A stretch of DNA of 64,000 bases from Pseudomonadota bacterium (GTDB lineage: Bacteria; Desulfobacterota; Binatia; Binatales; Binataceae): NCBI GenBank assembly GCA_021324885.1, contig JAJPIF010000011.1, forward strand, positions 124,001 through 188,000, read 5' to 3'. Every line of letters starts with the position of its first letter. Positions within the stretch are counted from its first letter, which is position 1. Positions 31,938 through 44,728 of the stretch are shown in pieces. The notes beneath the pieces are model-generated. The model had not been told where the DNA came from, searched no databases, and saw nothing but the letters and a program-made list of their open reading frames with translations. A program made the position numbers and the translations under genes.

Positions 31938-32819
31938 CTAATCAAGCGCGATCCGGGCCAGCACGCCGAAATGGTCGGACGCCCACAGCCATCCTCCGCC
32001 GGGCTGCGCGCAGGGGCGATCCAGAAACAAGCGGACCGATTCGATCCTGAAATCTCGCCCCTTACCCGGACGCAGGAAGACGTAATCGATGCGCTGGTTG
32101 GGCCGGGCTTCGGCGGCTTCGATATCCAGGTCGTGGCGATCGTTAGTGAAGCCAGGGGAGCTGCTGAAGGCGGCATGAAGATCGATGAACCCATTTTCCG
32201 TTAACGTGCGGATCGTGTCCGATTCGGGAACATCGTTGAAGTCGCCGCCGATCAGCACTGGATTGCGCGGATCGCTCGTGTGCCGCACCCATTGCAGCAG
32301 TTCCCGCGCCTGCTGGACTCGTATCGGTTCACCGCCCGAACTCTCGTCGCGATCCGTCAGATGAGTGGCGTAGGCTTCAAGTTCGATCCCGGGAGCCACT
32401 TTGTATCTGAGATGCAACGCGACGCGATCATCCGGTAGCCGATACTGTTGGCTGCCGACCGCCGCGCCGATCCGGACCTGAGCTGCGTACTTGAGTATTT
32501 CCGGCCCCCTGTCAGCGTGCTCGTGAAGGCTCATCAGGGCGATGCCTTCCTCGAATTTCCATTCGTCCTCGCCCAATCCGTCGGCGGGCGCGTAATGGAT
32601 CCGGTATGGAGCGCCTGCGCGGGTGCGATTGACCAATTCGTGGAGCTTGCGATCCATCTGACCGCAGGCCCGCGCACGGACTATCTCCTGGAGCGCGACG
32701 ATTCCTGGCTGTTCGGCCGCGATTGCGTTTGCCGCAATTTCCAGGCGGCGGTCCAGATGGCGGAAAGTGGGGAGATCGGAGAACAGGTTGAAGGTGAGGA
32801 AAGATACGCTCGCGCTCAT
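31938..32819 (-). CDS. Endonuclease/exonuclease/phosphatase-family protein
   Basis: 293 residues from ATG 32819 (AAGGAG upstream). EEP-fold motifs are all present: SFLTFNLFSDLP, IVALQEIV (catalytic Glu), YATHLTDRD, VLIGGDFNDVP (Asp/Asn), and at the end RIDYVFLRP and ASDHFGVLARI (Asp-His). These enzymes hydrolyse phosphodiesters in nucleic acids, phosphoinositides or sphingomyelin. No signal peptide is evident, so it is probably cytoplasmic. Convergent with lpxA and divergent from ccmE. Confidence 0.9.
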   Translation of the reverse strand: MSASVSFLTFNLFSDLPTFRHLDRRLEIAANAIAAEQPGIVALQEIVRARACGQMDRKLHELVNRTRAGAPYRIHYAPADGLGEDEWKFEEGIALMSLHEHADRGPEILKYAAQVRIGAAVGSQQYRLPDDRVALHLRYKVAPGIELEAYATHLTDRDESSGGEPIRVQQARELLQWVRHTSDPRNPVLIGGDFNDVPESDTIRTLTENGFIDLHAAFSSSPGFTNDRHDLDIEAAEARPNQRIDYVFLRPGKGRDFRIESVRLFLDRPCAQPGGGWLWASDHFGVLARIALD

Positions 32820-32989
32820 GGTTTGCGTTCTCCTTAATCGCACGTTGTCGCATCGTTTGGACGTGCGTATGCTCGGACAATTCTACCGCCAGGTACCCTT
32901 TTCGCGCTCCGTCCACAACGATGCAGCCGCCCGGTTTATTGCGCGCCTTCCTTGCGACGAAGTGGGGGGTGCGGTAGAGAATAAGGTCA

Positions 32990-33430
32990 ATGCGAATAAA
33001 ACCCCGGTTTCTGTTCGGCGGAGCGCTGATCGTCGCCGCGATTGCGTATCTGATCGTTATTGGAATCCGTAGCACTTCGGAATACTACCTGACAGTGGAC
33101 GAGGCCGCGGCCCGCCAAACCGAGCTGATGGGGCAGTCGATCCGGGTGGCCGGCCGGGTCAAGGCCGGCACCATCGAGTGGGATCCGACAAAATTGAAGC
33201 TAAGCTTTACAATCGTGCCGCCGCCTCAGGACGGCGCCGCCGTGCAGCCGGTCAGCATGCGTCCGGCGCAGGAGATCAGGGTCGTTTGTACGGGGGAACC
33301 CAAGCCTGACATGTTCGCTGCTGGGCGCGACGTTATTGTCGAAGGCCATTTGACGGCGCACAATTTCGTGACGGCCGACCAGGTGATGACCAGTTGCCCG
33401 TCGAAGTATCAGGCTAAGAAGGCGGGCTGA
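32990..33430 (+). CDS. ccmE: Cytochrome c maturation haem chaperone CcmE, Cys-type
   Basis: 146 residues: one N-terminal span (about 7-26) then the periplasmic OB-fold (GQSIRVAGRVKAGTIEW, VVCTGEPKPDMFAAGRDVIVEG). At the C-terminus the usual haem-binding His of HDExY is replaced: the sequence is TSCPSKY, i.e. Cys136-x3-Tyr140. This CxxxY form is known from Desulfovibrio-type and archaeal Ccm systems. The protein accepts haem from CcmC and delivers it to CcmF. First gene of an eight-gene operon. Confidence 0.95.
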   Translation: MRIKPRFLFGGALIVAAIAYLIVIGIRSTSEYYLTVDEAAARQTELMGQSIRVAGRVKAGTIEWDPTKLKLSFTIVPPPQDGAAVQPVSMRPAQEIRVVCTGEPKPDMFAAGRDVIVEGHLTAHNFVTADQVMTSCPSKYQAKKAG

Positions 33431-33436
33431 TTCCTG

Positions 33437-35455
33437 ATGACTCTGATCGGACAGTTGGCGCTGGCGCTCGGCCTTTTGCTGGCGGTTTACTCCATTGGCG
33501 CCAACATCTATGGGCTTCGCCGACGCAGCGGCGAAGTACTTGCCAGCGCGCGTCACGCCTTGTGGGCGATGACCGCGATGGTGGCGCTGGCGGCCTGCGG
33601 GCTGTGGACCGGGCTGCTGCGCAGCGATTTCTCGCTCGAATACGTGGCGAGTTATTCCAGCACCACCTTGCCGACGGTGTACAAGATCACGGCATTGTGG
33701 GGCGGGCAGCAGGGATCGCTGCTGTTCTGGACGCTGCTGCTTTCAATTTTCAGCGCGATCGTTGCTTTTCAAACCCGCGAACGAAATTCCGAAATCGCCC
33801 CGTATGTTCTGATCGTGATGGCCGCGGTCGCGGTATTCTTCCTGGCGATGCTGAATTTCGTCACGCGGCCTTTTGACGCGATGATTCCGGTGCCTGCGCA
33901 AGGCACCGATCTCAACCCGCTGTTGCAGAACTACTGGATGGCGATCCATCCGCCCTCCCTTTATACCGGTTACGTCAGCACCACGGTTCCGTTTGCGTTC
34001 GCCACGGCGGCGCTGATGACCGGGCGTCTGGACGACGGATGGATCCGCAGCACTCGCCGATGGGCCTTGTTCTCGTGGTTTTTCCTGACTTTGGGCAACA
34101 TGTTCGGCGCGCGATGGGCCTACGAGGTGCTGGGCTGGGGTGGTTACTGGGCCTGGGATCCGGTGGAGAATGCCGCCTTCATGCCGTGGCTGGTGATGAC
34201 CGCGTATCTGCATTCGGTAATGGTCCAGGAGCGCAAGGACATGCTGAAAGTCTGGAACCTCGCCCTGATCGGCCTGGCCTTCGCGCTGACCTTGTTCGGC
34301 ACGTTCATCACGCGCAGCGGCGTTATCTCTTCGGTGCATTCCTTCACGCAGTCGGGTCTGGGGCCGTATTTTCTGACTTTCCTCCTGGTCGTGGTGGTAG
34401 CGTACACGGGCCTGCTGCTCAGCCGGATCAAAGATTTGCGCAGCCCGGCAGAGTTGGAGTCCTATCTGTCGCGGGAAGCGGCGTTCCTGTTCAACAACCT
34501 GGTGCTCGTTGGCATCGCGTTCGCGGTTTTTTGGGGAACGGTTTTCCCGGTCATCTCGGAGGCGGTGCGCGGTGTAAAGATCACCGTGGGCCCGCCGTTT
34601 TTCAACAAAGTCAACGGACCGCTGGCGCTCGCGCTGATTTTCCTGATGGGCGTGGGGCCGCTGATCGCATGGCGGCGCGCCACGCGCAAAAACCTGGTGC
34701 AGAGCTTCACCGCGCCGGCTGTAGTCGGGATCGTGACCGGGCTGTTGGCCTACGCCTTCGGCATCCGCGGATGGTACGTGCTGACCGGATTTTCGCTGGC
34801 CGCGTTCGTCCTCGGTACAATCGTCGTGGAGTTTGAGCGCGGGGTGTTGGCGCGGGGGCGGATGGTCCATGAGCGGCCGCCTCGCGCCCTGGTGAATCTG
34901 GTCGCGAAGAACAATCGCCGCTATGGCGGTTATATCGTCCATCTCGGCGTCGTGCTCGCTTTTGTCGCGATTATCGGTTCGTCATTTTTCAAGACCGAAG
35001 TGAAGCAAAGCGTTAAACCGGGCCAAAGCTTCGCGGTCGGCCCCTACCGTCTGGTTTACCTCGGGCTCGCTTCCTTCGAAACGGCCCACCTCGAAAACTT
35101 AAGCGCCCGCGTCAACGTCACCCGCGACGGCAGGTCGCTGGAGGTGATCGAACCCGCCAAGCTCTTTTTCAAGCGCCAGCAACAGCCTGCCACCAGGGTG
35201 GCAATCCGCTCCACGCTCGCCGCGGATCTTTACGTGGTGCTGGCCGGGGTGGATGACAAGACCGGGATGGCGACTTTCGATGTCTTTCTGACCCCGCTGG
35301 TCAGTTGGCTCTGGCTGGGCGGATTGACGATGGCCCTGGGGACCGTCGTGACGATGTGGCCTAATGCGCATGAGCGCGAAGTGATTGCCGCGGCGGCCCG
35401 CCGCCGGATGGGCGAACTGGAGCGGCAACTGGCCGCCGAAGTGCGCGGTACCTGA
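33437..35455 (+). CDS. ccmF: Cytochrome c haem lyase subunit CcmF
   Basis: 672 residues with about 15 membrane spans and the CcmF landmarks: WGGQQGSLLFW, the Trp-rich WGGYWAWDPVENAAFMPW, FGTFITRSGVISSVHSF and a large C-terminal periplasmic domain. It attaches haem to CxxCH apocytochromes together with CcmH. It begins 6 bases after ccmE; its TGA overlaps the next start (TGATG). Confidence 0.97.
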   Translation: MTLIGQLALALGLLLAVYSIGANIYGLRRRSGEVLASARHALWAMTAMVALAACGLWTGLLRSDFSLEYVASYSSTTLPTVYKITALWGGQQGSLLFWTLLLSIFSAIVAFQTRERNSEIAPYVLIVMAAVAVFFLAMLNFVTRPFDAMIPVPAQGTDLNPLLQNYWMAIHPPSLYTGYVSTTVPFAFATAALMTGRLDDGWIRSTRRWALFSWFFLTLGNMFGARWAYEVLGWGGYWAWDPVENAAFMPWLVMTAYLHSVMVQERKDMLKVWNLALIGLAFALTLFGTFITRSGVISSVHSFTQSGLGPYFLTFLLVVVVAYTGLLLSRIKDLRSPAELESYLSREAAFLFNNLVLVGIAFAVFWGTVFPVISEAVRGVKITVGPPFFNKVNGPLALALIFLMGVGPLIAWRRATRKNLVQSFTAPAVVGIVTGLLAYAFGIRGWYVLTGFSLAAFVLGTIVVEFERGVLARGRMVHERPPRALVNLVAKNNRRYGGYIVHLGVVLAFVAIIGSSFFKTEVKQSVKPGQSFAVGPYRLVYLGLASFETAHLENLSARVNVTRDGRSLEVIEPAKLFFKRQQQPATRVAIRSTLAADLYVVLAGVDDKTGMATFDVFLTPLVSWLWLGGLTMALGTVVTMWPNAHEREVIAAAARRRMGELERQLAAEVRGT

Positions 35456-35943
35456 TGCGTTACTTACAGCCCCTGGTGGTGATTATCGCCTTGATCGCAG
35501 CGGCTTGGGCGACGGCTGCGGCAGCTCCGACGACCACCGTTCAGGACGTGGCCGAAGGGCTGACCTGCCAATGCGGCTGCGGTCTGACGGTGGCCAACTG
35601 CAATCATCCCAATTGCGGTTTTTCGGTGCCGATGCGCGGTGAAATCGCCGGGATGATCCGCAAAGGCATGAGCCGGATCGAGATTCTCGACGCTTTTCGC
35701 CATAAATATGGCGAAAAGATCCTGTCCGCGCCGACCACTCAGGGGTTCAACCTGCTTGCCTGGGTCATTCCCTATGTTGCCGTCGGCGCCGGTATGCTGT
35801 TGATATTGATCGCGGTGGCGCGATGGCAAAGACCCGACGCGGCTGAAGGCGGCCCGCAGCGTCAGGCCACCGTCTCCGCCGTCAATCAGTTTGACCCCGG
35901 TCTCAGGCAGCGGCTTGAACGAGACCTCAAACGCCAGTTATAG
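35455..35943 (+). CDS. ccmH: CcmH-like thiol protein with CxCxC motif
   Basis: 162 residues: a signal anchor (4-24), a small periplasmic domain and one C-terminal span (WVIPYVAVGAGMLLILIAV). Canonical CcmH has LRCxxC; here the motif is LTCQCGC (Cys38, 40, 42) with two more cysteines at 49 and 54 (NCNHPNCGF). The following helix (GEIAGMIRKGMSRIEILDAFRHKYG, quoted in part) matches CcmH/NrfF. It should reduce the apocytochrome thiols, but with altered cysteine chemistry. Its start is coupled to the ccmF stop. Confidence 0.9.
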   Translation: MRYLQPLVVIIALIAAAWATAAAAPTTTVQDVAEGLTCQCGCGLTVANCNHPNCGFSVPMRGEIAGMIRKGMSRIEILDAFRHKYGEKILSAPTTQGFNLLAWVIPYVAVGAGMLLILIAVARWQRPDAAEGGPQRQATVSAVNQFDPGLRQRLERDLKRQL

Positions 35944-35946
35944 GCC

Positions 35947-36408
35947 GTGATCTATCTCGCGCTGTTTTTGATCGTCGTTGGTGTGGCCCTCTTTGTGGCG
36001 GCGCCACTGTTCGAAACCGCGACCGCCGGCGGCCCAGGCGATGCCGACTCGGAACGCAGCCGCCTTGAGCACGAGCGCGCGCTGGCCGTCCAGGCCCTTC
36101 GCGACCTGGAATTCGATCACGAGATGCGCAAGCTGTCGGAGCAGGACTGGTCCGAACTGAGACAGACCCTCGAAGCGCGAGCGCTGCGTGCGATGGCGGC
36201 GCTCGAAAAACTCGACCAGGCAGCCGCCGACCGTGGTCTGCGGGCGCGCAAGCGCCCCGTGCGCATCGCCGATGCTCCGACCGGGGGGCGGCCGAGGTTC
36301 TGTCCTGAGTGCGGCCAGCCGCTTACTGCCGGTGCCAACTTCTGCGGGCAATGCGGTGGCGCCCTGAAATTTCCGGAAAACCAGCAAGACGCCCGAAGCC
36401 ATGGCTGA
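35947..36408 (+). CDS. CcmI-like membrane protein with C-terminal zinc ribbon
   Basis: 153 residues from GTG 35947. A single N-terminal span is followed by a helical segment (HERALAVQALRDLEFDHEM, KLSEQDW) like the N-terminal part of CcmI, which handles apocytochromes. Instead of the TPR domain of CcmI, the C-terminus carries a zinc ribbon: CPECGQPLTAGANFCGQCG. It sits between ccmH and ccmA and overlaps ccmA by 8 bases. An apocytochrome-binding accessory role is inferred. Confidence 0.75.
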   Translation: MIYLALFLIVVGVALFVAAPLFETATAGGPGDADSERSRLEHERALAVQALRDLEFDHEMRKLSEQDWSELRQTLEARALRAMAALEKLDQAAADRGLRARKRPVRIADAPTGGRPRFCPECGQPLTAGANFCGQCGGALKFPENQQDARSHG

Positions 36409-37096
36409 GGTGGTGCTGCAAGCGCAGCGCATTGCCAAATTTTTCGGTGAACGGCCGGTTCTTTACGGCCTTGACCTGACCCTCCGGGCGGGCCAAGCGG
36501 CAGTAATCGTTGGACGAAATGGAGTCGGCAAGTCGACGCTAATCAAAATCCTGTGCGGCCTTTCCCCGCCCAGCGCCGGACGGCTATGGCTGTTTGGTCA
36601 GGAGCCTCGGAGCATGGCGGCACAACAGTTTCGACGCGTCGGCGTCCTGCTCCATCAGAGCCTGCTCTATCCCCGGCTTACCTGCCGCGAGAATATGGAG
36701 TTTTACAGCGAACTTTTCGCAATCCCGGATGCCGGCGCGCATGCCCGCCGATGGTTGGAGCGGGTCGGACTTCAGCGGGCCGCCGACGAACTGGTCAGCG
36801 CGCTGTCGCGGGGAATGGAACAGCGCCTGGGCATCGCGCGCGCGATGCTCGCCGACCCCGACCTGATCCTGCTCGATGAGCCGTTTGCCGCGATGGACGC
36901 CGACGGTGTGGCGCTGGTCTCGTCCCTTGTTCGCGAGGCCTTGGCGCGTGAGGCGGCGGTGATTTTTACGGCGCATGCCCCGCTGGAAATCGCCGGCGTC
37001 GACCTCCGAATGTTCAAGCTGGAGAGCAATGGTTTGACGCCGTTCAAGGATGAAGGCCGGCGCGGCTCTCTGCGCAATCTGCTGCGGCGGAATTAG
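36401..37096 (+). CDS. ccmA: Haem exporter ATPase CcmA
   Basis: 231 residues with Walker A GRNGVGKST, the signature LSRGMEQRLGIARAM, and Walker B LILLDEPFAAMD. It is the ATPase of the CcmABCD complex that releases holo-CcmE. Overlaps the CcmI-like gene by 8 bases and is followed 2 bases later by ccmB. Confidence 0.94.
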   Translation: MAEVVLQAQRIAKFFGERPVLYGLDLTLRAGQAAVIVGRNGVGKSTLIKILCGLSPPSAGRLWLFGQEPRSMAAQQFRRVGVLLHQSLLYPRLTCRENMEFYSELFAIPDAGAHARRWLERVGLQRAADELVSALSRGMEQRLGIARAMLADPDLILLDEPFAAMDADGVALVSSLVREALAREAAVIFTAHAPLEIAGVDLRMFKLESNGLTPFKDEGRRGSLRNLLRRN

Positions 37097-37098
37097 CA

Positions 37099-37773
37099 AT
37101 GCTGGAAGGATTCGGTCCCATCCTGCGCAAGGATTTGCGGCTTGAGGTCCGCACCGGCGAAAGCACGGTCGTCCTGGTTTCAATCTCGGTATTGATCCTG
37201 GTCGTGATGGTTCTGGCCTTTGGTCCCGCCGGCGCGCGCCGCGCCGAGGTCGCGGCGGGAGCGTTGTGGACCGCTCTGATCTTTGCCGGCACGATGGGCG
37301 CCACGCGCGCGCTGCTGTCCGAGCGTGAGTCCGGATGTCTTCGCGGCTTGCTGCTCAGCCCGGTCGAACCAGCGACGATTTATGCCGCCAAGTTGTCGGT
37401 GGCGATGATCTTCATGGCGCAAGCCGGCATCGCGGTGCTGGTCGTGCTGGTGCTGTTCTTCAATCTTGATTTTGGCGGCGCCTTGCTGCGCCTGCTCCCG
37501 GTCTTTCTGCTCGGAATCGTGGGACTGGCCGCCCTGTGCACATTGCTCGCCACTGTTTCCGGCCGGGTCCGCGCGGGCGCGATGCTGTTGCCGGTGATGG
37601 TCGTGCCGCTCTTTGCTCCAGCCCTGATCGCCGGCAGTAAGGCCAGTGCGGCGGTGTTGGCAGGGCAGCCCCTGGGCGCGGTGATCACCTGGCTCAAGCT
37701 GCTCGGCGCTTTCGACGTCCTCTTCGTCACCGCCGGGTATCTGCTCTTTGAGCACGTTATTTTTGAGGATTGA
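37099..37773 (+). CDS. ccmB: Haem exporter permease CcmB
   Basis: 224 residues, six membrane spans, with the early cytoplasmic RKDLRLEVRTGE and the SERESGCLRGLLLSPVEPATIY loop typical of CcmB. Works with CcmA, CcmC and CcmD. Starts 2 bases after ccmA. Confidence 0.95.
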   Translation: MLEGFGPILRKDLRLEVRTGESTVVLVSISVLILVVMVLAFGPAGARRAEVAAGALWTALIFAGTMGATRALLSERESGCLRGLLLSPVEPATIYAAKLSVAMIFMAQAGIAVLVVLVLFFNLDFGGALLRLLPVFLLGIVGLAALCTLLATVSGRVRAGAMLLPVMVVPLFAPALIAGSKASAAVLAGQPLGAVITWLKLLGAFDVLFVTAGYLLFEHVIFED

Positions 37774-37781
37774 CGCGATTG

Positions 37782-38489
37782 ATGAAAAACCCGATATCGA
37801 TTGGTCTGGCTGCGGCCACTTGCCTCTCGATGGTGGCCGCGCTGTTCATGGTATTCGTATACGTTCCCACCGAAGCCGAACAGGGAATCGTCCAGCGCAT
37901 CTTCTATTTCCATCTGCCTTGCGCGTGGGTCGCCTTCCTTGGTTTTGGGATCGTGGCGCTTGCCGGGGGATTATATCTATGGCTGGGCCACAAGGTGTGG
38001 GACGACCTGAGCTACGCGGCGGCGGAACTGGGGATGCTGTTCTGCACGCTGGTGCTGGTTACCGGATCGATCTGGGCCAAACCGATTTGGGGTGTTTGGT
38101 GGACGTGGGACTCGCGCCTGACCACGACGTTCATCCTGTGGCTGCTTTACGGCAGTTATCTGCTGCTGCGCGCCTTCGCCGATGACACCGACGGTATCGC
38201 GCGATTCGCCGCCGTGCTGGGGATCGTCGGTGTGCTGGACATCCCGATCATCATAATTTCGGTCAGGCTGTGGCGCACGATTCATCCGGCGGTGCTGCTG
38301 ACGCGCCAGGGTGAGCACGGGCTGCAGGATCTCAGGATGGTGGCGACGCTGCTGGTTTCGCTGGCAGCATTTACGATTATGTTCGTATGGCTGCTATGGA
38401 TGAGAGTCGCGACCCTGCGCTTGCGCACGCGGATTGTCAGATTGCGCAGGACTCTGGCCTTGCGGGAATTGGCGGAGGCGCATCGCTGA
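37782..38489 (+). CDS. ccmC: Haem-handling protein CcmC
   Basis: 235 residues from ATG 37782 (TTG 37770 is also open and would overlap ccmB). Six spans with the periplasmic haem-binding Trp-rich segment WWTWDSRLTTTFILW and flanking histidines, one at FYFHLPCAW and one at TIHPAV. It presents haem to CcmE. Its TGA overlaps the ccmD start. Confidence 0.95.
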   Translation: MKNPISIGLAAATCLSMVAALFMVFVYVPTEAEQGIVQRIFYFHLPCAWVAFLGFGIVALAGGLYLWLGHKVWDDLSYAAAELGMLFCTLVLVTGSIWAKPIWGVWWTWDSRLTTTFILWLLYGSYLLLRAFADDTDGIARFAAVLGIVGVLDIPIIIISVRLWRTIHPAVLLTRQGEHGLQDLRMVATLLVSLAAFTIMFVWLLWMRVATLRLRTRIVRLRRTLALRELAEAHR

Positions 38490-38686
38490 TGGATCATCTG
38501 GGATATCTGTTCGCCGCCTACAGCATCATTTTCCTCCTGATCGGGCTTTACGTGATCTTCATCGGGACGCGGCAAGCCCGTTTGGAGCGCGAAGTCCGCC
38601 GCCTGGAATCCGAGTTGCGCAAGAACGAGCCTCCCCTTGCGCCCGCAGACAATGTCGAAGAGATCAAAACCCCCGGCGGCGTATAG
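38489..38686 (+). CDS. ccmD: Small haem-exporter subunit CcmD
   Basis: 65 residues starting at ATG 38489, directly on the ccmC stop (TGATG). One membrane helix (YLFAAYSIIFLLIGLYVIF) with a charged C-terminal tail (RLEREVRRLESELRKNE) fits CcmD, which helps release holo-CcmE from CcmABC. The longer in-frame extension upstream is antiparallel noise inside ccmC. Last gene of the ccm operon. Confidence 0.85.
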   Translation: MDHLGYLFAAYSIIFLLIGLYVIFIGTRQARLEREVRRLESELRKNEPPLAPADNVEEIKTPGGV

Positions 38687-38921
38687 ATAGGAGCCGCAAA
38701 GCCCGGGAGAAGAAATCCTGGCCACGAAGGTCGGCGCCGGGTAGATTCGCGCGTGAACGCGGCAGCTTCCTCCTTACCAACCACGGACGGTGTTGGGAGC
38801 CCCGCGCCGGAATTTGGGACGCTATGGCCTTGCTTGGCTTGGTTCCGTGCGCAGTTTATAAGAAGGGCTTGGCTTTCGCCTTGTGGCCAGAACTGCCGAG
38901 CTTGAGGTGCTTTTGCGATAG

Positions 38922-40028
38922 ATGGAATTCCAGGATTACTACAAAACCTTGGGCGTCGAGCGCACGGCCACCGAGCAAGAGATCAAATCCGCCTATCGCA
39001 AGCTGGCCCGCAAATTTCACCCCGACGTTAATCCCGGTAACAAGGAAGCGGAAAAGCGCTTCAAGGAAATCAATGAGGCGTACCAGGTGCTCGGGGACCC
39101 CGACAAGCGCAAGAAATACGACGAACTCGGCGCCGATTGGCAGCGCGGCGCGGCGGAAGACGAATTGCGCCGCCGCTACGCGCAACAGGGCGGACCGTCG
39201 AGCGGATTCCGCGCCGGTCCGGGTGCGGAAGACTTCAGTGACTTTTTTGCCAGCTTCTTCGGCGGCATGGGCGGCGGCGGGATGGGCGGCCGCAGAACCC
39301 GCACTGCGGGCTTCGAGGACTTCGGCGATTTCGGGTTCGCCCCACGCGAAGAAAAGGCTCCAGACCTCACGGCCGAAGTCCAGATTACTCTGGCCGAAGC
39401 CGCGCACGGGACCAGGCGCCGTCTTGAGTTGACCGCCCAGGACGATTGCCCCGTCTGCAAAGGCGCGGGCATGGTGATGCAGGAAGAGCGAATGGGGCAG
39501 GCGCGCGTGGTGCGTTCCGCCAAAACTTGTTCGCGATGCAAGGGCAGCGGGATCATCCCCAACCGCCGCACCCTGGAAGTAACGATTCCGGCCGGCACCA
39601 CCGACGGCACCCGGATGCGCCTGGCGGGGCAGGGAGGACGCGGCCCGCGTGCGGACCTCAATGGCGACCTTTTCCTGACCGTGCGCCTTCAGCCGGATCG
39701 GGTTTTCAAAGTCAACGGAAGGGATTTGCGAGTCGAGCTCCCGGTATGGGATTACGAAGCCGTTCTGGGCGCCGAGGTCACCGTTCCGACGCTGACCGGC
39801 AAACTGTCGCTCAAAATTCCCGCCGACAGCCAGACCGGCAGAGTGATGCGACTTAAGGGCAAAGGCTTGCCTGGCCGGGGCAAAGACCCGGCCGGCGATC
39901 TGTTCTTCGAATTGAAAGTGCTGGCGCCGAACAATCTCACCGAGGATGAACGCGCTTTGTTCCGCGAACTGGCGGAAAAAGAGCGCCGGCGCGGAACCCC
40001 TGACCCTCGCTCCGAATTGTTTAGATAG
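38922..40028 (+). CDS. DnaJ-family J-protein with half zinc centre
   Basis: 368 residues. J domain at 1-70 with HPD (33-35), a Gly/Phe-rich linker (95-140), a reduced cysteine region with only two CxxCxGxG repeats (Cys176/179 and Cys203/206; DnaJ has four), and two C-terminal beta domains ([19 protein letters not shown]-like: [17 protein letters not shown]). It stimulates DnaK and binds unfolded clients, here with a single zinc site at most. It is an intermediate between DnaJ and CbpA. A CbpM/MerR-like partner gene follows 2 bases later. Confidence 0.88.
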
Positions 40029-40030
40029 CT

Positions 40031-40321
40031 ATGACCGCTCGAAACAAATCAAAAAAAGGTTCCCGCCGCGAATTGCGCTTTTACACCAGGTCCGTGGTCT
40101 GCGGCTTGTGCGGCGTTTCGGAATCGGAGCTCGCCCTGTGGGAATCCGAGGACCTGGTGACTCCCGCCCGCCTGCTGGAGCATGGCAGCCGCTTCGAGCC
40201 GCTTTATGACGCCGACTCGCTGCGGCGCATCCGCCTGATCCGCACCCTCGCCGATGAACTGGAGGTCAACATCCCGGGCATCAGCGTAATCCTTCATCTG
40301 CTGGAACAGATGCAGCGTTAG
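40031..40321 (+). CDS. MerR-like/CbpM-type chaperone modulator
   Basis: 96 residues: a winged-helix MerR-type N-terminus (VCGLCGVSESELALWESEDLV, then DADSLRRIRLIRTLADEL) and a C-terminal helix (ISVILHLLEQMQR). In E. coli CbpM binds CbpA and blocks its J-domain; HspR-type relatives repress dnaK operons. Either role fits, and adjacency to the J-protein supports it. The DNA-binding helix looks intact. Confidence 0.8.
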   Translation: MTARNKSKKGSRRELRFYTRSVVCGLCGVSESELALWESEDLVTPARLLEHGSRFEPLYDADSLRRIRLIRTLADELEVNIPGISVILHLLEQMQR

Positions 40322-40507
40322 CGAATCCGGCAGCGCGCATCGGTTATATTGAATCGGGGTTTTAGCGGGACAATGATAACCAATGTCCCCTTCAGGCTCC
40401 CCTCCCACCCATAACCTCACCCCAGGAGCCTGGCGAGGTGATAGACAGGCTGCGAGCAACGACTTCTGCTGAGGATCGGTATGCCCGATCATTTCGTTGG
40501 AGCAAAA

Positions 40508-41131
40508 ATGATGTTCAACCGCGAAAGGAAATATCTTGTCAAGCTGGCAACGGCCGCCGTCTGTGCCACAGTGCTGATGGCTGTGGTTGGCTGCGATCGT
40601 CCCGGATCGATGGCAAGTTATACGCCGATCAAAACAACTGATTGCCTTCCGTCGATCGCGTTGACCGATCAACACGGCAGGGTCGTCGAGCTGTCTTCGT
40701 TCAAAGGCAAGCCGGTCCTTGTCAACTTTATTTATACGTCCTGCCCGGGTCCTTGTGTGACCGAAACGCAGCATCTGGCCAAGGTGGCGGACAGAATATC
40801 CGGCGAATTGGGACGCAAAGTCGTCATGCTTTCGATCACGGTGGATCCCGAGCACGACGGACCCGGACAGTTGCTCGCCTATGCCAGGCGGCAGGACGCG
40901 CAACGGCCAGGGTGGTATTTCCTGACCGGCGCGCCCAACACGATTGACAAGGTACTGAGCAACTTCAAGCTGATTCGGCAGCGCGAACCGAATGGCGAAA
41001 TTGCGCATATCGTCGCCGTCTTTCTCCTGGGGCCCGACGGACGCGTGGTGCGCGAATATAACGGTGAGATTCTTCAGGCCGCCACGGTCACGGCCGACAT
41101 CAACCATGAAATGACCAAGGGAAAGGCCTGA
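40508..41131 (+). CDS. SCO1/SenC copper-binding lipoprotein
   Basis: 207 residues from ATG 40508 (GGAG upstream; ATG 40481 is also possible). Signal peptide with lipobox MAVVGC, then a thioredoxin fold with the copper-binding CPGPC (Cys79/83) and the distal histidine in GEIAHIVAVFLLGPDG. SCO proteins deliver copper to the CuA site of cytochrome oxidase or act as thiol reductases. It is the first of four plus-strand genes with redox or cysteine themes (to 42965). Confidence 0.92.
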   Translation: MMFNRERKYLVKLATAAVCATVLMAVVGCDRPGSMASYTPIKTTDCLPSIALTDQHGRVVELSSFKGKPVLVNFIYTSCPGPCVTETQHLAKVADRISGELGRKVVMLSITVDPEHDGPGQLLAYARRQDAQRPGWYFLTGAPNTIDKVLSNFKLIRQREPNGEIAHIVAVFLLGPDGRVVREYNGEILQAATVTADINHEMTKGKA

Positions 41132-41232
41132 CCGCAATACGCCCATGTCAGCGGGCAAGGCATCTGTCTTCAAGCGCTGCGCGATCTCCCGTAGCTGGTA
41201 GAACCCAAACGCATGCGAGCAGAAGGACGACT

Positions 41233-41874
41233 GTGAGCAGGAATCCAGGGAAAGGCGCAACCCGCATCCCAGGATGGCTGTGCGCTGGTGGCGCGATAGC
41301 GCTGATGATGGGATTTCTTCTGTGGTGGATGTCTCCCGACTATCGATGCACCGCGCTGCAGGCCAACGATTCCGGCGCCTTGCTGATCGACGTCAATCCG
41401 CTGGCGCGCGCAAGCGCCAGGCTATATTGCTGGAGCACGCCGGATCGCGCCGAAACCGTCCGCTTTATAGTCGGCCGGCGCAGCGACGGCGCGATCGAAG
41501 CGGTGCTCGATGCCTGCAGGACCTGCTACCGCAGCAATCTTGGTTACCGGATCGAAAATGGCGTACTGATATGCCGCTTTTGCGCAAACCGCTACTCTCT
41601 TGACAAGCTTGCGGATGGTATGGCGTCATGCCGGGCGTTGGCGCTTCCGTTCACGGTCGATCATGGAATCGTGATGATCACAACCGCCGACCTGATGAGA
41701 AGCGCGCGCTATTTCCCGCGCTTGTCGATCGCCAACCGGCTCCTGACATCGCCCTTCAGATTGCTGGAGCGTTTAGCGCACGCGGACCGTTGGCAGCGGG
41801 CGGACGCGCCGAAACCGGCAGATCGGATGGGTATCGCATCCAAACCATCGATTTCCACGCTGCTTGACAACTGA
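41233..41874 (+). CDS. DUF2318-type membrane-anchored cysteine protein
   Basis: 213 residues from GTG 41233 (AAGGA upstream). One N-terminal span, then a periplasmic domain with DACRTCYRSNLGYRIENG and CRFCANRYSLDKL, the pattern of DUF2318 proteins, which carry two CxxC pairs that probably bind a metal or Fe-S cluster. Found beside copper or iron import and cytochrome genes. The C-terminal 60 residues are extra and basic. Confidence 0.78.
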   Translation: MSRNPGKGATRIPGWLCAGGAIALMMGFLLWWMSPDYRCTALQANDSGALLIDVNPLARASARLYCWSTPDRAETVRFIVGRRSDGAIEAVLDACRTCYRSNLGYRIENGVLICRFCANRYSLDKLADGMASCRALALPFTVDHGIVMITTADLMRSARYFPRLSIANRLLTSPFRLLERLAHADRWQRADAPKPADRMGIASKPSISTLLDN

Positions 41875-41919
41875 CGGGAGCGCCGCGGCAATGATCAGCA
41901 CACTCGGGTCTTGTCCCAT

Positions 41920-42510
41920 ATGAGCTCAGCGCCGCCGATTGCCAGGCAGGAGCCGGCGCGCGTTTCCTGCGCAAGCACCCTGGGGCAGGCGATTGTACGC
42001 GACCTGGGCGCCGTAATCGTGGTCGTCATTTTGAGCCTGGCGGCCGGAGTTTTGATCAATCGGCTCTCCTCGCAGCCGCTGCCGATCGTTTATCAAACTC
42101 CCGAACAGCGGCTCGATGCGGAGCTTACTTCTTTGGTCAAAGTGCCGCCGTTTCAGATTGCGCCAGCCGCGACCCTGGGCCTCGCGCAATTTCGTGCAGC
42201 GGTCGAGAACAGGAGCGCGCTGATCCTCGATGCGAGGCCGTCCGCGTTTTTCAAAGCGGGACACGTGCCGGGCGCCCTGAATCTGGCGCGCGACAATTTC
42301 GCGCAGGACTATCATCACCTTTCCGGAGTTCTGAAGCCTGCCGAAGATAAGCCCGTCATTGTGTACTGCTCCGGCGGGACATGCCACGACAGCCGTCTGG
42401 TCGCCAACGCGCTGCTGAGCCTGGGCTTCAGCGATGTCAGGGTGTTCACCGGGGGATGGGAGGAATGGTCGGCGGCCGGTCTGCCGGTGTCCAAGGGGGA
42501 AGCACCATGA
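41920..42510 (+). CDS. Membrane-anchored rhodanese-like protein
   Basis: 196 residues: one membrane span (GAVIVVVILSLAAGVLI), a periplasmic linker, and a rhodanese domain (LILDARPSAFFKAGHVPGA, active-site loop YCSGGTCHDSR, VRVFTGGWEEW). It carries sulfur or performs thiol exchange outside the inner membrane. Its TGA overlaps the next start (ATGA), coupling it to the MauE gene. Confidence 0.85.
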   Translation: MSSAPPIARQEPARVSCASTLGQAIVRDLGAVIVVVILSLAAGVLINRLSSQPLPIVYQTPEQRLDAELTSLVKVPPFQIAPAATLGLAQFRAAVENRSALILDARPSAFFKAGHVPGALNLARDNFAQDYHHLSGVLKPAEDKPVIVYCSGGTCHDSRLVANALLSLGFSDVRVFTGGWEEWSAAGLPVSKGEAP

Positions 42511-42965
42511 AACCGGGTCGGAATCTCAGTCGCGATTATATTGTGATTGGCATCAGCCTGGCGCTTGCCGCCATTTTCATCTATGCGGGCGCCGGGAAGA
42601 TTTTCGATCCACTGCGGTTTGCCGACGCTATCTATGCCTTTTCGATTCTGCCCGCGGTGCTGATCAACCTGCTGGCCCTGGGTCTGCCGGTATTCGAAAT
42701 CGCATGCGGAGTTATGCTCATCGCGCCCTGGACGCGAAGGATCGGCGCCCTCGCTGTGGCGCTCACCTCATTGCTCTATTTCTCGGTTCTGCTGTCGGCG
42801 CTCGTCCGCGGTCTGACGCTGGATTGCGGATGCTTCGGGACTGGCGCACCGTCGCGGGCGCGGATGTGGGTCGAACTCGGTCTGGACGCGGTGCTGTTCG
42901 CCGGATCGCTCCTGGTTTATTTCCGCATCCTGGAAAGTGCGGCAAAAGTCGGCGACCGGGCGTGA
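42507..42965 (+). CDS. MauE/DoxX-family membrane protein
   Basis: 152 residues with four to five spans; YAGAGKIFDPLRFADAI and the periplasmic LDCGCFG motif are typical of MauE/DoxX proteins. In methylamine dehydrogenase biogenesis MauE works with a periplasmic disulfide enzyme to form disulfides. The paired cysteines (CGC) and coupling to the rhodanese gene suggest a thiol-redox relay. No mau structural genes are in the window. Confidence 0.8.
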   Translation: MKPGRNLSRDYIVIGISLALAAIFIYAGAGKIFDPLRFADAIYAFSILPAVLINLLALGLPVFEIACGVMLIAPWTRRIGALAVALTSLLYFSVLLSALVRGLTLDCGCFGTGAPSRARMWVELGLDAVLFAGSLLVYFRILESAAKVGDRA

Positions 42966-42997
42966 CCGCAAAACGCCAATGCCCGGCCCTCTCCTCT

Positions 42998-43090
42998 GGC
43001 AGAGTGCGGAAAAAACAGCGGGTACGCCTTTATCAGGATGCTGCGTTCCGCACCCCCGGATAAAAGATGGCTGCTTTTATTTACTTCTGT
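42998..43090 (-). repeat. Dispersed palindromic repeat, copy B
   Basis: Inverted partner of the segment at 14634-14736. The conserved core is bounded by GTGCGGAA (43004-43011) and TTCCGCAC (43046-43053); GGATAAAAGATGGCTG (43058-43073) follows as in copy A. It lies between the convergent MauE and WYL genes and its stem could end both transcripts. Confidence 0.7.
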
Positions 43091-43111
43091 CCCTCTGGGA
43101 GAGACTGGAAT

Positions 43112-44128
43112 CTAGGCGTAATGGTTTGCGGCTGTCTTCAATAGCTCTGCAAGTTCCCGGCGCAGAGCCGCTGGCTTCAGCACTTCCAGCCATGGGCCGA
43201 AACCGAGGATCCAGTTCCTCAGCTCGGTGGTGCCGCGCACCGTCATGGTCAGCACCGTTTTGCCGTCGCGCCGCCTGATGAACTTCTGCGTCGGATGAAT
43301 CTGGCGCTCGCGCAGGTATTTTTCCGTTTCGGCGTTATGGATCAGGATTTCGACCGCGGCCGGTTTGTCTTCAACTATGATTCCGAACGCGCCCTCCGTG
43401 TAGCGATCGGGCCGAAATGTTGCCGGATAGACAAACTTCCGGAACGCAGCGCCGTCGCCGGGCATTAATTCCACTTTGCGCATCCGGTCCACCGCCATCG
43501 TGGTGATCCTGCCGTTGACGTGGGTCTTGCCGATCAGGTAGAGGCCTCCGCGGTATGCAATCAGGGTGTAAGGATCGACCTCATGCACCACTCCTGTGGC
43601 ATAGTCGATCTGCAGACGGTATTCGCGAATCAGGCCGCGGATGATCGGGTCGAGCGCATGGCCGAGCTTGCGATAGTCCTTGGGCAAATACGGTATGGCA
43701 AAGAATTTCCGATCCAGCGATCCGAGATCGGCGCGCTCAAAGGCGGGCAAAGCCCTGGCAAATCGGTCCCATAGCTCGTCGATGCCCTCCTTGAGCACCG
43801 TGCCCTCCAGGAACTGAAGGATGGTTAACGTGAAGTAAAGCGACACCGCCTGATAGGCGCTGGAGTCAACCGCCCTGGCCGATACGGGCTGGCGCAGCTT
43901 GATTTTTCCACCGTCGCTGACGACGTGGAAGTAAGGCCGTCCCGAACGATCCACCAGGGTGTTTTTGCCCGCTGCCAGATAGCGCTTGAGCGTGCGTTCG
44001 GAGATTCCGAGTTCGCGCTGGATGGCGTCAAGGGCCCATCCGAAAGGATGAGACGGCAGTTCAAAAGCTATCCGCGCCATCCGCAGCGCCGCGGAGTAGC
44101 TGGGTTTGCGATGCTCTTTCTTTGCCAT
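43112..44128 (-). CDS. WYL-domain transcriptional regulator
   Basis: 338 residues. The N-terminal helix-turn-helix (WALDAIQRELGISERTLKRYL) is followed by a WYL domain (DPYTLIAYRGGLYLIGKTH, quoted in part, ITTMAVDRMRKVELM) and a WYL C-terminal domain (VLTMTVRGTTELRNWILGFG). WYL regulators sense nucleic acid or small ligands, and often control DNA-damage or defence genes. Target genes are not evident; the upstream VOC gene runs in the same direction. Confidence 0.9.
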   Translation of the reverse strand: MAKKEHRKPSYSAALRMARIAFELPSHPFGWALDAIQRELGISERTLKRYLAAGKNTLVDRSGRPYFHVVSDGGKIKLRQPVSARAVDSSAYQAVSLYFTLTILQFLEGTVLKEGIDELWDRFARALPAFERADLGSLDRKFFAIPYLPKDYRKLGHALDPIIRGLIREYRLQIDYATGVVHEVDPYTLIAYRGGLYLIGKTHVNGRITTMAVDRMRKVELMPGDGAAFRKFVYPATFRPDRYTEGAFGIIVEDKPAAVEILIHNAETEKYLRERQIHPTQKFIRRRDGKTVLTMTVRGTTELRNWILGFGPWLEVLKPAALRRELAELLKTAANHYA

Positions 44129-44284
44129 AATGCGGGCTTATAACATTATGGCGATGCTTAGTGACAACGGTTGTCAAACCCGGTAGTGTCCTGAATCAGG
44201 CAATTCGGACGGCGTCCAACGCCCGCCATCAATAAAAATGTCGGCCGAGGATGAGCATGGCGGCCCGCCCTCCCGTCGCGACGA

Positions 44285-44728
44285 TTAGGCGGTGCGGAAG
44301 TTCAATTCCAGCGTGATGCCGTTGGGGTCATTGACGAAAATCTGGCGCAGGCCCATCTGCGGCACTTCGTTAAAACGCATCTCCAGCCCGTTGCGCCGCA
44401 GCCGCTCGCGAACCGCATCGTAATCGTGGCAGGCAAAGGCCACGTGCTCGATCGAAGCGCTGCCGTTGAGGTCCGCAAGGCCGATCGAAGTGCGCAGGTT
44501 CCCCAGCCGCTGGCGGATACTGTCGAAGGTGGACTGCGGGTCCTGGGGATCAACGCCCTGTATGTGAAGCACCGCGTTGTCGTTGTCGTCGCAGATGAAC
44601 GCGTTTTTGTTCGAAACCATGCCGCCCGGCAGGCCGGCGTTTTTCATGCCGAGCACCTCGGTATAGAAGCGGATGGTTTCCGGGAAGTTCTTCGTCACGA
44701 TATTGACGTGATCAAGGCTCCTGATCAT
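44285..44728 (-). CDS. VOC-superfamily (glyoxalase-like) protein
   Basis: 147 residues with two beta-alpha-beta-beta-beta repeats: LDHVNIVTKNFPETIRFYTEVLGM at the start (quoted in part) with metal-ligand His, VAFACHDYDAVRERLRRNGLEM and the closing Glu in NDPNGITLELNF. It is a metal-dependent lyase, isomerase or dioxygenase of unknown substrate, or a ligand-binding protein. GGAGGCGG precedes the ATG. Confidence 0.9.
   Translation of the reverse strand: MIRSLDHVNIVTKNFPETIRFYTEVLGMKNAGLPGGMVSNKNAFICDDNDNAVLHIQGVDPQDPQSTFDSIRQRLGNLRTSIGLADLNGSASIEHVAFACHDYDAVRERLRRNGLEMRFNEVPQMGLRQIFVNDPNGITLELNFRTA

Follow-up and report, generated by a model that had tools for sequence, protein, structure and literature searches.

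A SCO1, FtrD-like, rhodanese and MauE gene set in a Binataceae genome: a candidate copper-linked module for periplasmic thiol redox

The four genes and their cysteine motifs

Here, we analyse four consecutive genes on the forward strand of the window, the whole 64,000-nucleotide stretch examined, which corresponds to C13:124001-188000 in a genome of 4.53 Mb and 30 contigs (G000). As described in the initial annotation, the genes encode a SCO1, an FtrD-like/DUF2318, a rhodanese and a MauE protein, and each product scores above the Pfam cut-offs. The set and the genes preceding it are as follows.

32990..38686, + strand: ccmE-F-H-I-A-B-C-D operon for cytochrome c maturation, lacking ccmG (context, taken to lie outside the set)
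38922-40028, + strand: dnaJ/cbpA, between the ccm operon and the set
40031-40321, + strand: cbpM/MerR-like gene, between the ccm operon and the set
40508..41131, + strand: SCO1/SenC-family protein (Pfam PF02630, 91 bits); another ATG lies upstream at 40481
41233..41874, + strand: FtrD-like/DUF2318 protein (Pfam PF10080, 60 bits)
41911..42510, + strand: membrane-anchored, periplasmic rhodanese (Pfam PF00581, 72 bits); TTG start at 41911 or ATG at 41920
42507..42965, + strand: MauE/DoxX-type membrane protein (Pfam PF07291, 90.4 bits against a cut-off of 27)

Gaps of 101 bp (SCO1/FtrD-like) and 36 bp (FtrD-like/rhodanese) separate the first three genes, and the translational coupling claimed for the last two is borne out by a 4-bp ATGA overlap, in which the MauE start codon (ATG, 42507-42509) lies over the rhodanese stop codon (TGA, 42508-42510). 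An Rfam search of window positions 32000-44500 returned zero RNA elements, a promoter scan found none, and terminator-like sites occur close to the level of shuffled sequence. In PHROGs, neither the FtrD-like protein nor MauE matched a phage family.

All cysteine motifs named in the initial annotation, i.e., CPGPC in SCO1, a double CxxC in the FtrD-like protein, CSGGTC in the rhodanese and CGC in MauE, are present and are kept in relatives. The SCO1 protein has a lipoprotein-like signal (LMAVVGC) and a thioredoxin fold, and carries the copper ligands of its family, namely the CxxxC motif CPGPC and a downstream His in EIAHIV; it matches the solved Sco1 structures 1xzo and 1on4 (E 1e-20), aligning with 1on4, and nearly all SCO1 proteins in Binataceae clusters keep the CxxxC and the His. 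The FtrD-like protein has a single N-terminal transmembrane helix and an additional C-terminal tail without counterpart in its homologues. Its motif, CRTC-x15-CRFC-x15-C, in which all five Cys residues are invariant among 18 homologues, fits the PF10080 pattern CxxC-x(~13-15)-CxxC-x(14-15)-C; the published FtrD-like motif is CxxC-x13-CxxC-x14,15-C (PMC6083913). While a sequence search of the PDB gave no match for this protein, the top Foldseek matches of its AlphaFold model (pLDDT 80 overall, higher in the core) are Rieske proteins (E 5e-4, probability 0.99-1.00), with a TM of about 0.5 against a small Rieske-like protein. Judged from this model, the two CxxC pairs may lie at the site of the Rieske cluster-binding loops.

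Among named sequences, those closest to the rhodanese come from Candidatus Binatus soli and Candidatus Binataceae MAGs, which places the window in Binataceae (Binatota). Its active-site loop, CSGGTC, is a CxxxxC dithiol, and both C153 and C158 are invariant across 30 sequences; the invariance of the second loop Cys, C158, suggests redox use instead of or besides sulfurtransferase activity. In MauE, C107-G-C109 is invariant across 26 sequences. The MauE model is a helical bundle (pLDDT 91) that gave no significant match to solved structures in a fold search of the PDB, DsbD and CcdA included; likewise, its profile matches are confined to MauE/DoxX and do not extend to DsbD_TM. Because they are invariant in the FtrD-like protein (n=18), the rhodanese (n=30) and MauE (n=26), these motif cysteines are not there by chance.

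The upstream cytochrome c maturation operon

The initial annotation had the set following a ccm operon without ccmG. The absence of ccmG was confirmed; direct adjacency was not, with dnaJ and a cbpM-like gene lying in between. Within the operon, positions 35947-36408 of the window encode a CcmI-like protein with a C-terminal zinc ribbon. From this arrangement it had been proposed that the set substitutes for CcmG/CcdA; SCO1 or the rhodanese would then reduce apocytochrome c, and MauE would supply the electrons. The gene missing just upstream, the thiol motifs and the possible membrane carrier favour this idea, and the set does resemble CcmG/DsbE-CcdA in combining a periplasmic thiol protein with a membrane thiol carrier. 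However, the protein families differ, and the genome encodes candidates for both functions elsewhere. A full DsbD is encoded on C29 (569 aa as called, open frame 619), has CIPC and an N-terminal Cys pair, and accounts for the only DsbD_TM match in the genome. C2 encodes a membrane-anchored WCGPC thioredoxin, nearest to ResA (128 bits, cut-off 170; DsbE 65 bits, cut-off 123), and this ResA/CcmG-like protein is present in 34 of the 35 family genomes in the sample of relatives. It is also the best match in the genome, below cut-off, to the DsbE profile TIGR00385, and the four set proteins are not among the matches to that profile. We infer that the C2 thioredoxin does the job of CcmG.

Gene order in relatives argues in the same direction. 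Eighteen ccm regions of the family were read; one (L217, 4 kb) stops at ccmF and is uninformative downstream, leaving 17 for counting, and G044 and G048, which belong to other families, were left out of the count. In none of the 17 loci readable past ccmF, two congeners among them, does the set follow ccm. Instead, dnaJ comes after the ccm run in 14, with cbpM recognised in 12 of those; in the two congeners (CcmF 88% identical; L215, L216) the order is ccm, dnaJ, cbpM and then other genes. Shortly downstream, nine of the 14 ccm-dnaJ loci encode an FtsH-like protein (read from the start MNQFSRSIALWL and variants), and L215, L225, L226, L228 and L230 have other genes. The loci lacking dnaJ have other genes 3' of ccmC (L224, L234) or unrelated genes 3' of ccmF (L229). 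At the far end of L229 lie two matches labelled SCO1 and RHOD, which we read as a peroxiredoxin and a different kind of rhodanese by likeness to the C23 neighbourhood of the window's own genome (L071). In the remaining family loci read, neither the rhodanese gene nor the FtrD-like gene has a ccm operon beside it. The linkage of ccm to dnaJ, mostly with a cbpM-like gene, is itself seen in the window (32990-40321) and in L215-L231.

Since 17 readable relatives, congeners included, lack the set at this place, its location next to ccm is, among the loci read, specific to this genome; and since these relatives have the ccm run without the set behind it, ccm without ccmG works in this family without the set. 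Replacement of CcmG/CcdA as the exclusive role of the set is thus ruled out by genome content and gene order, and we regard any such substitution as very improbable. Rather, absence of ccmG from the ccm operon is the normal state in this family and calls for no adjacent substitute.

Recurrence of the genes in Binataceae and beyond

To place the set in its family, 20 FtrD-like loci and 17 rhodanese loci of Binataceae were compared; both genes lie in one stretch in five genomes. The four-gene order of the window, the conservation of which beside ccm or oxidase genes had been suggested as a check, was seen in no other of these loci and is found in this genome alone among the loci read. By contrast with this order, parts of the set recur. 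The rhodanese and MauE genes are adjacent in 16 of the 17 family loci outside the window, and in the remaining one (G029) the contig ends after the rhodanese gene. SCO1 stands immediately 5' of the rhodanese gene in six of the 17 and also in L152, which carries SCO1 with the pair, is labelled Acidobacteriaceae and, with a rhodanese 60% identical to that of the window, is possibly mis-binned. An FtrD-like gene lies within 5 kb of the rhodanese gene in five of the 17. FtrD-like genes lie near CopC/CopD in 11 loci, and most family FtrD-like loci have SCO1 and/or CopC plus CopD nearby, together with an unnamed protein of 300 residues. G023 has, on one strand, genes for the FtrD-like protein, an unknown protein, CopC, CopD, SCO1, rhodanese and MauE. 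G008, G020 and G029 additionally encode a second unnamed protein along with one resembling TlpA; G026 encodes both of these as well, with no SCO1 in the stretch read. Rough binomial estimates of chance association, which rest on assumed copy numbers and ignore phylogeny, are 3e-15 for SCO1, 2e-8 for the FtrD-like gene and 6e-21 for CopC by the FtrD-like gene. Because SCO1, FtrD-like, CopC/CopD and rhodanese-MauE genes recur together in Binataceae, a reading in terms of copper gains support.

Elsewhere in the window's genome, a probable metal-uptake locus on C14 (L240:365-8232) has TonB/ExbB/ExbD-like genes, a TonB receptor, a Fur-family gene, CopC, CopD and the unnamed 300-aa protein, and a second SCO1, about 49% identical to that of the window, adjoins a short CoxB-like gene (G000:C5:88434-89611; L067). 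The AMO profile, used for CuMMO as a client, gave no match in this genome, and the control genomes likewise gave none. In a tree, the FtrD-like protein of the window stands apart from the copies of its congeners and pairs weakly (81/58), on a long branch, with G008; at the threshold applied, the congeners lack a rhodanese match. These data fit either a transfer from another Binataceae lineage or a loss in the congeners.

The rhodanese-MauE pair extends well beyond the family. In other loci of the phylum, MauE lies within 1.8 kb on the same strand for at least 36 of 49 further rhodanese matches, and in Acidobacteria the two genes are adjacent in all six loci read; matches from Legionella and Verrucomicrobia in the rhodanese scan are weak (E 1e-7 to 1e-14). 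The two partners are also found as fusions: L117:958-1959 encodes MauE and CxxxxC rhodanese domains in a single protein, and in L104, L120 and L123 a cation-efflux (CDF) transporter, encoded beside a CxxxxC rhodanese gene, carries by Pfam a C-terminal MauE fusion. L121 has the same long frame as these three, and further MauE matches near a rhodanese lie in open frames of >500 aa. In two phylum genomes (G410, G372) a SCO1-family gene lies divergently to the pair and is followed by oxidase-subunit-like genes (L141 SCO1 by Pfam). In many genomes, however, the pair stands alone, with copper or metal genes not nearby; because this is often so, copper is perhaps only one of several clients.

In three congeneric genomes (genus g87; L105, L107, L112), tandem rhodaneses have an in-frame TGA as the second loop residue (CxxxxU), and from their sequence these are possible selenoproteins. 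TsoB, a selenoprotein resembling a rhodanese/DsbD fusion, is listed as having UxxxxU in the loop motif (PMC13188914). Taken together, TsoB and the tandem proteins suggest a redox role for the second loop position. TsoB shares with the pair described here a transmembrane thiol carrier that is joined to a rhodanese whose two redox residues are spaced as in CxxxxC. However, the carrier of TsoB is DsbD-like, whereas here it is MauE, encoded by a separate gene, with Cys for Sec, and the TsoB profile scored 47 bits against a cut-off of 805. The open-access literature, to which our search was confined, yielded no paper on the rhodanese-MauE pair and nothing relevant on rhodanese with MauE or DoxX.

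A candidate copper-linked thiol-redox module

Two characterised systems offer partial precedents. In Bradyrhizobium, TlpA reduces ScoI and COX II (PMC6696091). The TlpA-ScoI-CoxB system for CuA assembly resembles the set in its SCO1-type chaperone with CxxxC and His; its reductant is a membrane-anchored periplasmic thiol protein, and TlpA-like genes occur in several related Binataceae clusters. In the window, by contrast, the thiol protein nearby is a rhodanese with a CxxxxC loop and MauE as its partner, and the set has neither TlpA nor an adjoining oxidase gene. MauD-MauE of methylamine utilisation likewise joins a MauE-family membrane protein to a membrane-anchored periplasmic thiol protein; however, the partner of MauE in the set is a rhodanese and not MauD, and mauA and mauD lie on C17. 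The methylamine dehydrogenase cluster there (L078; G000:C17) has a MauA-like gene, MauD, a MauE-like neighbour and c-type cytochrome-like genes.

On the basis of gene context, we suggest, with about an even chance of being right, that the set is a lineage-specific periplasmic metal/thiol-redox module that is built on the conserved rhodanese-MauE core and linked to copper. The core would consist of the multi-helix MauE with its CGC dithiol and the membrane-anchored periplasmic rhodanese with its CxxxxC dithiol, translationally coupled to each other. MauE would relay thiol reducing equivalents at the membrane, as DsbD/CcdA do or as MauE does for MauD in methylamine dehydrogenase maturation, and the rhodanese would carry them through the periplasm to SCO1, the CxxxC of which must be reduced for copper binding and hand-over. 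The Cys-rich domain of the FtrD-like protein is perhaps a second recipient and would bind a metal or carry an Fe-S centre. Likely clients would be the haem-copper oxidases of the genome, at their CuA sites, or CopC/CopD-mediated uptake of copper. The order of the genes, the conserved cysteines, the linkage to copper genes, the fusions and the independence from ccm are observed, whereas the direction of electron flow, the identity of the metal as copper and the client are what we infer in this model; the linkage to copper is supported by recurrence in the family, the kept SCO1 ligands and the SCO1-oxidase neighbours in two phylum genomes. The copper-site assembly module considered in the initial annotation is therefore upheld by gene context, with its client still conjectural.

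Several findings weigh against this model: the four-gene order is limited to this genome, the MauE model lacks a significant solved-structure match, and the pair often stands without copper genes. So does the cation-efflux domain fused to MauE, which has no assigned substrate here. Moreover, iron uptake is the process to which FtrD-like proteins are otherwise linked, raising the alternative that the FtrD-like protein acts as in Fet/Ftr uptake and that the other genes give redox power for iron. FtrD-like/DUF2318 proteins are linked to Campylobacter iron uptake with paired thioredoxins (PMC6083913, PMC10783030), the FetA/FtrD system shares the double CxxC, the fifth Cys and periplasmic thiol proteins alongside, and the genome's CopC/CopD locus adjoins the Fur-family gene and TonB receptor. 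However, the DUF2318 protein here is stand-alone with one transmembrane helix; the neighbouring ORFs include no FetM/Ftr1 permease, P19/FetP or ABC genes; the usual partners in the family are SCO1, CopC and CopD; and a copper-responsive CsoR regulon also includes DUF2318 proteins. We consider iron unlikely.

Rhodaneses are classically sulfurtransferases, and with the pair standing alone in so many genomes, it could be a general periplasmic thiol or sulfane-sulfur system next to which SCO1 and the FtrD-like protein are coincidental here. The invariant second loop Cys, which points to redox use, and the repeated linkage to SCO1, CopC/CopD and cation-efflux fusions speak against this explanation, and we hold it to be rather unlikely, if slightly less so than iron. 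Returning to the copper-linked model, a broader proposal is possible, although we advance it only tentatively: the CxxxxC rhodanese and MauE may form a widespread and previously undescribed system for thiol redox across the membrane in Desulfobacterota-type bacteria, Acidobacteria and Binatota. Such a system would serve as an alternative to DsbD/CcdA plus thioredoxin and keep periplasmic copper (and other metal) proteins redox-competent, and Binataceae clusters would add to it SCO1, CopC/CopD and an FtrD-like protein that is all-Cys and Rieske-like in fold.

Little is known of how reductant reaches periplasmic copper chaperones in bacteria that lack a dedicated TlpA-ScoI arrangement. The conserved rhodanese-MauE pair, with its fusions to each other and to cation-efflux proteins, is a concrete candidate for copper-chaperone reduction and, if this is true, a role for MauE proteins outside methylamine utilisation would follow.
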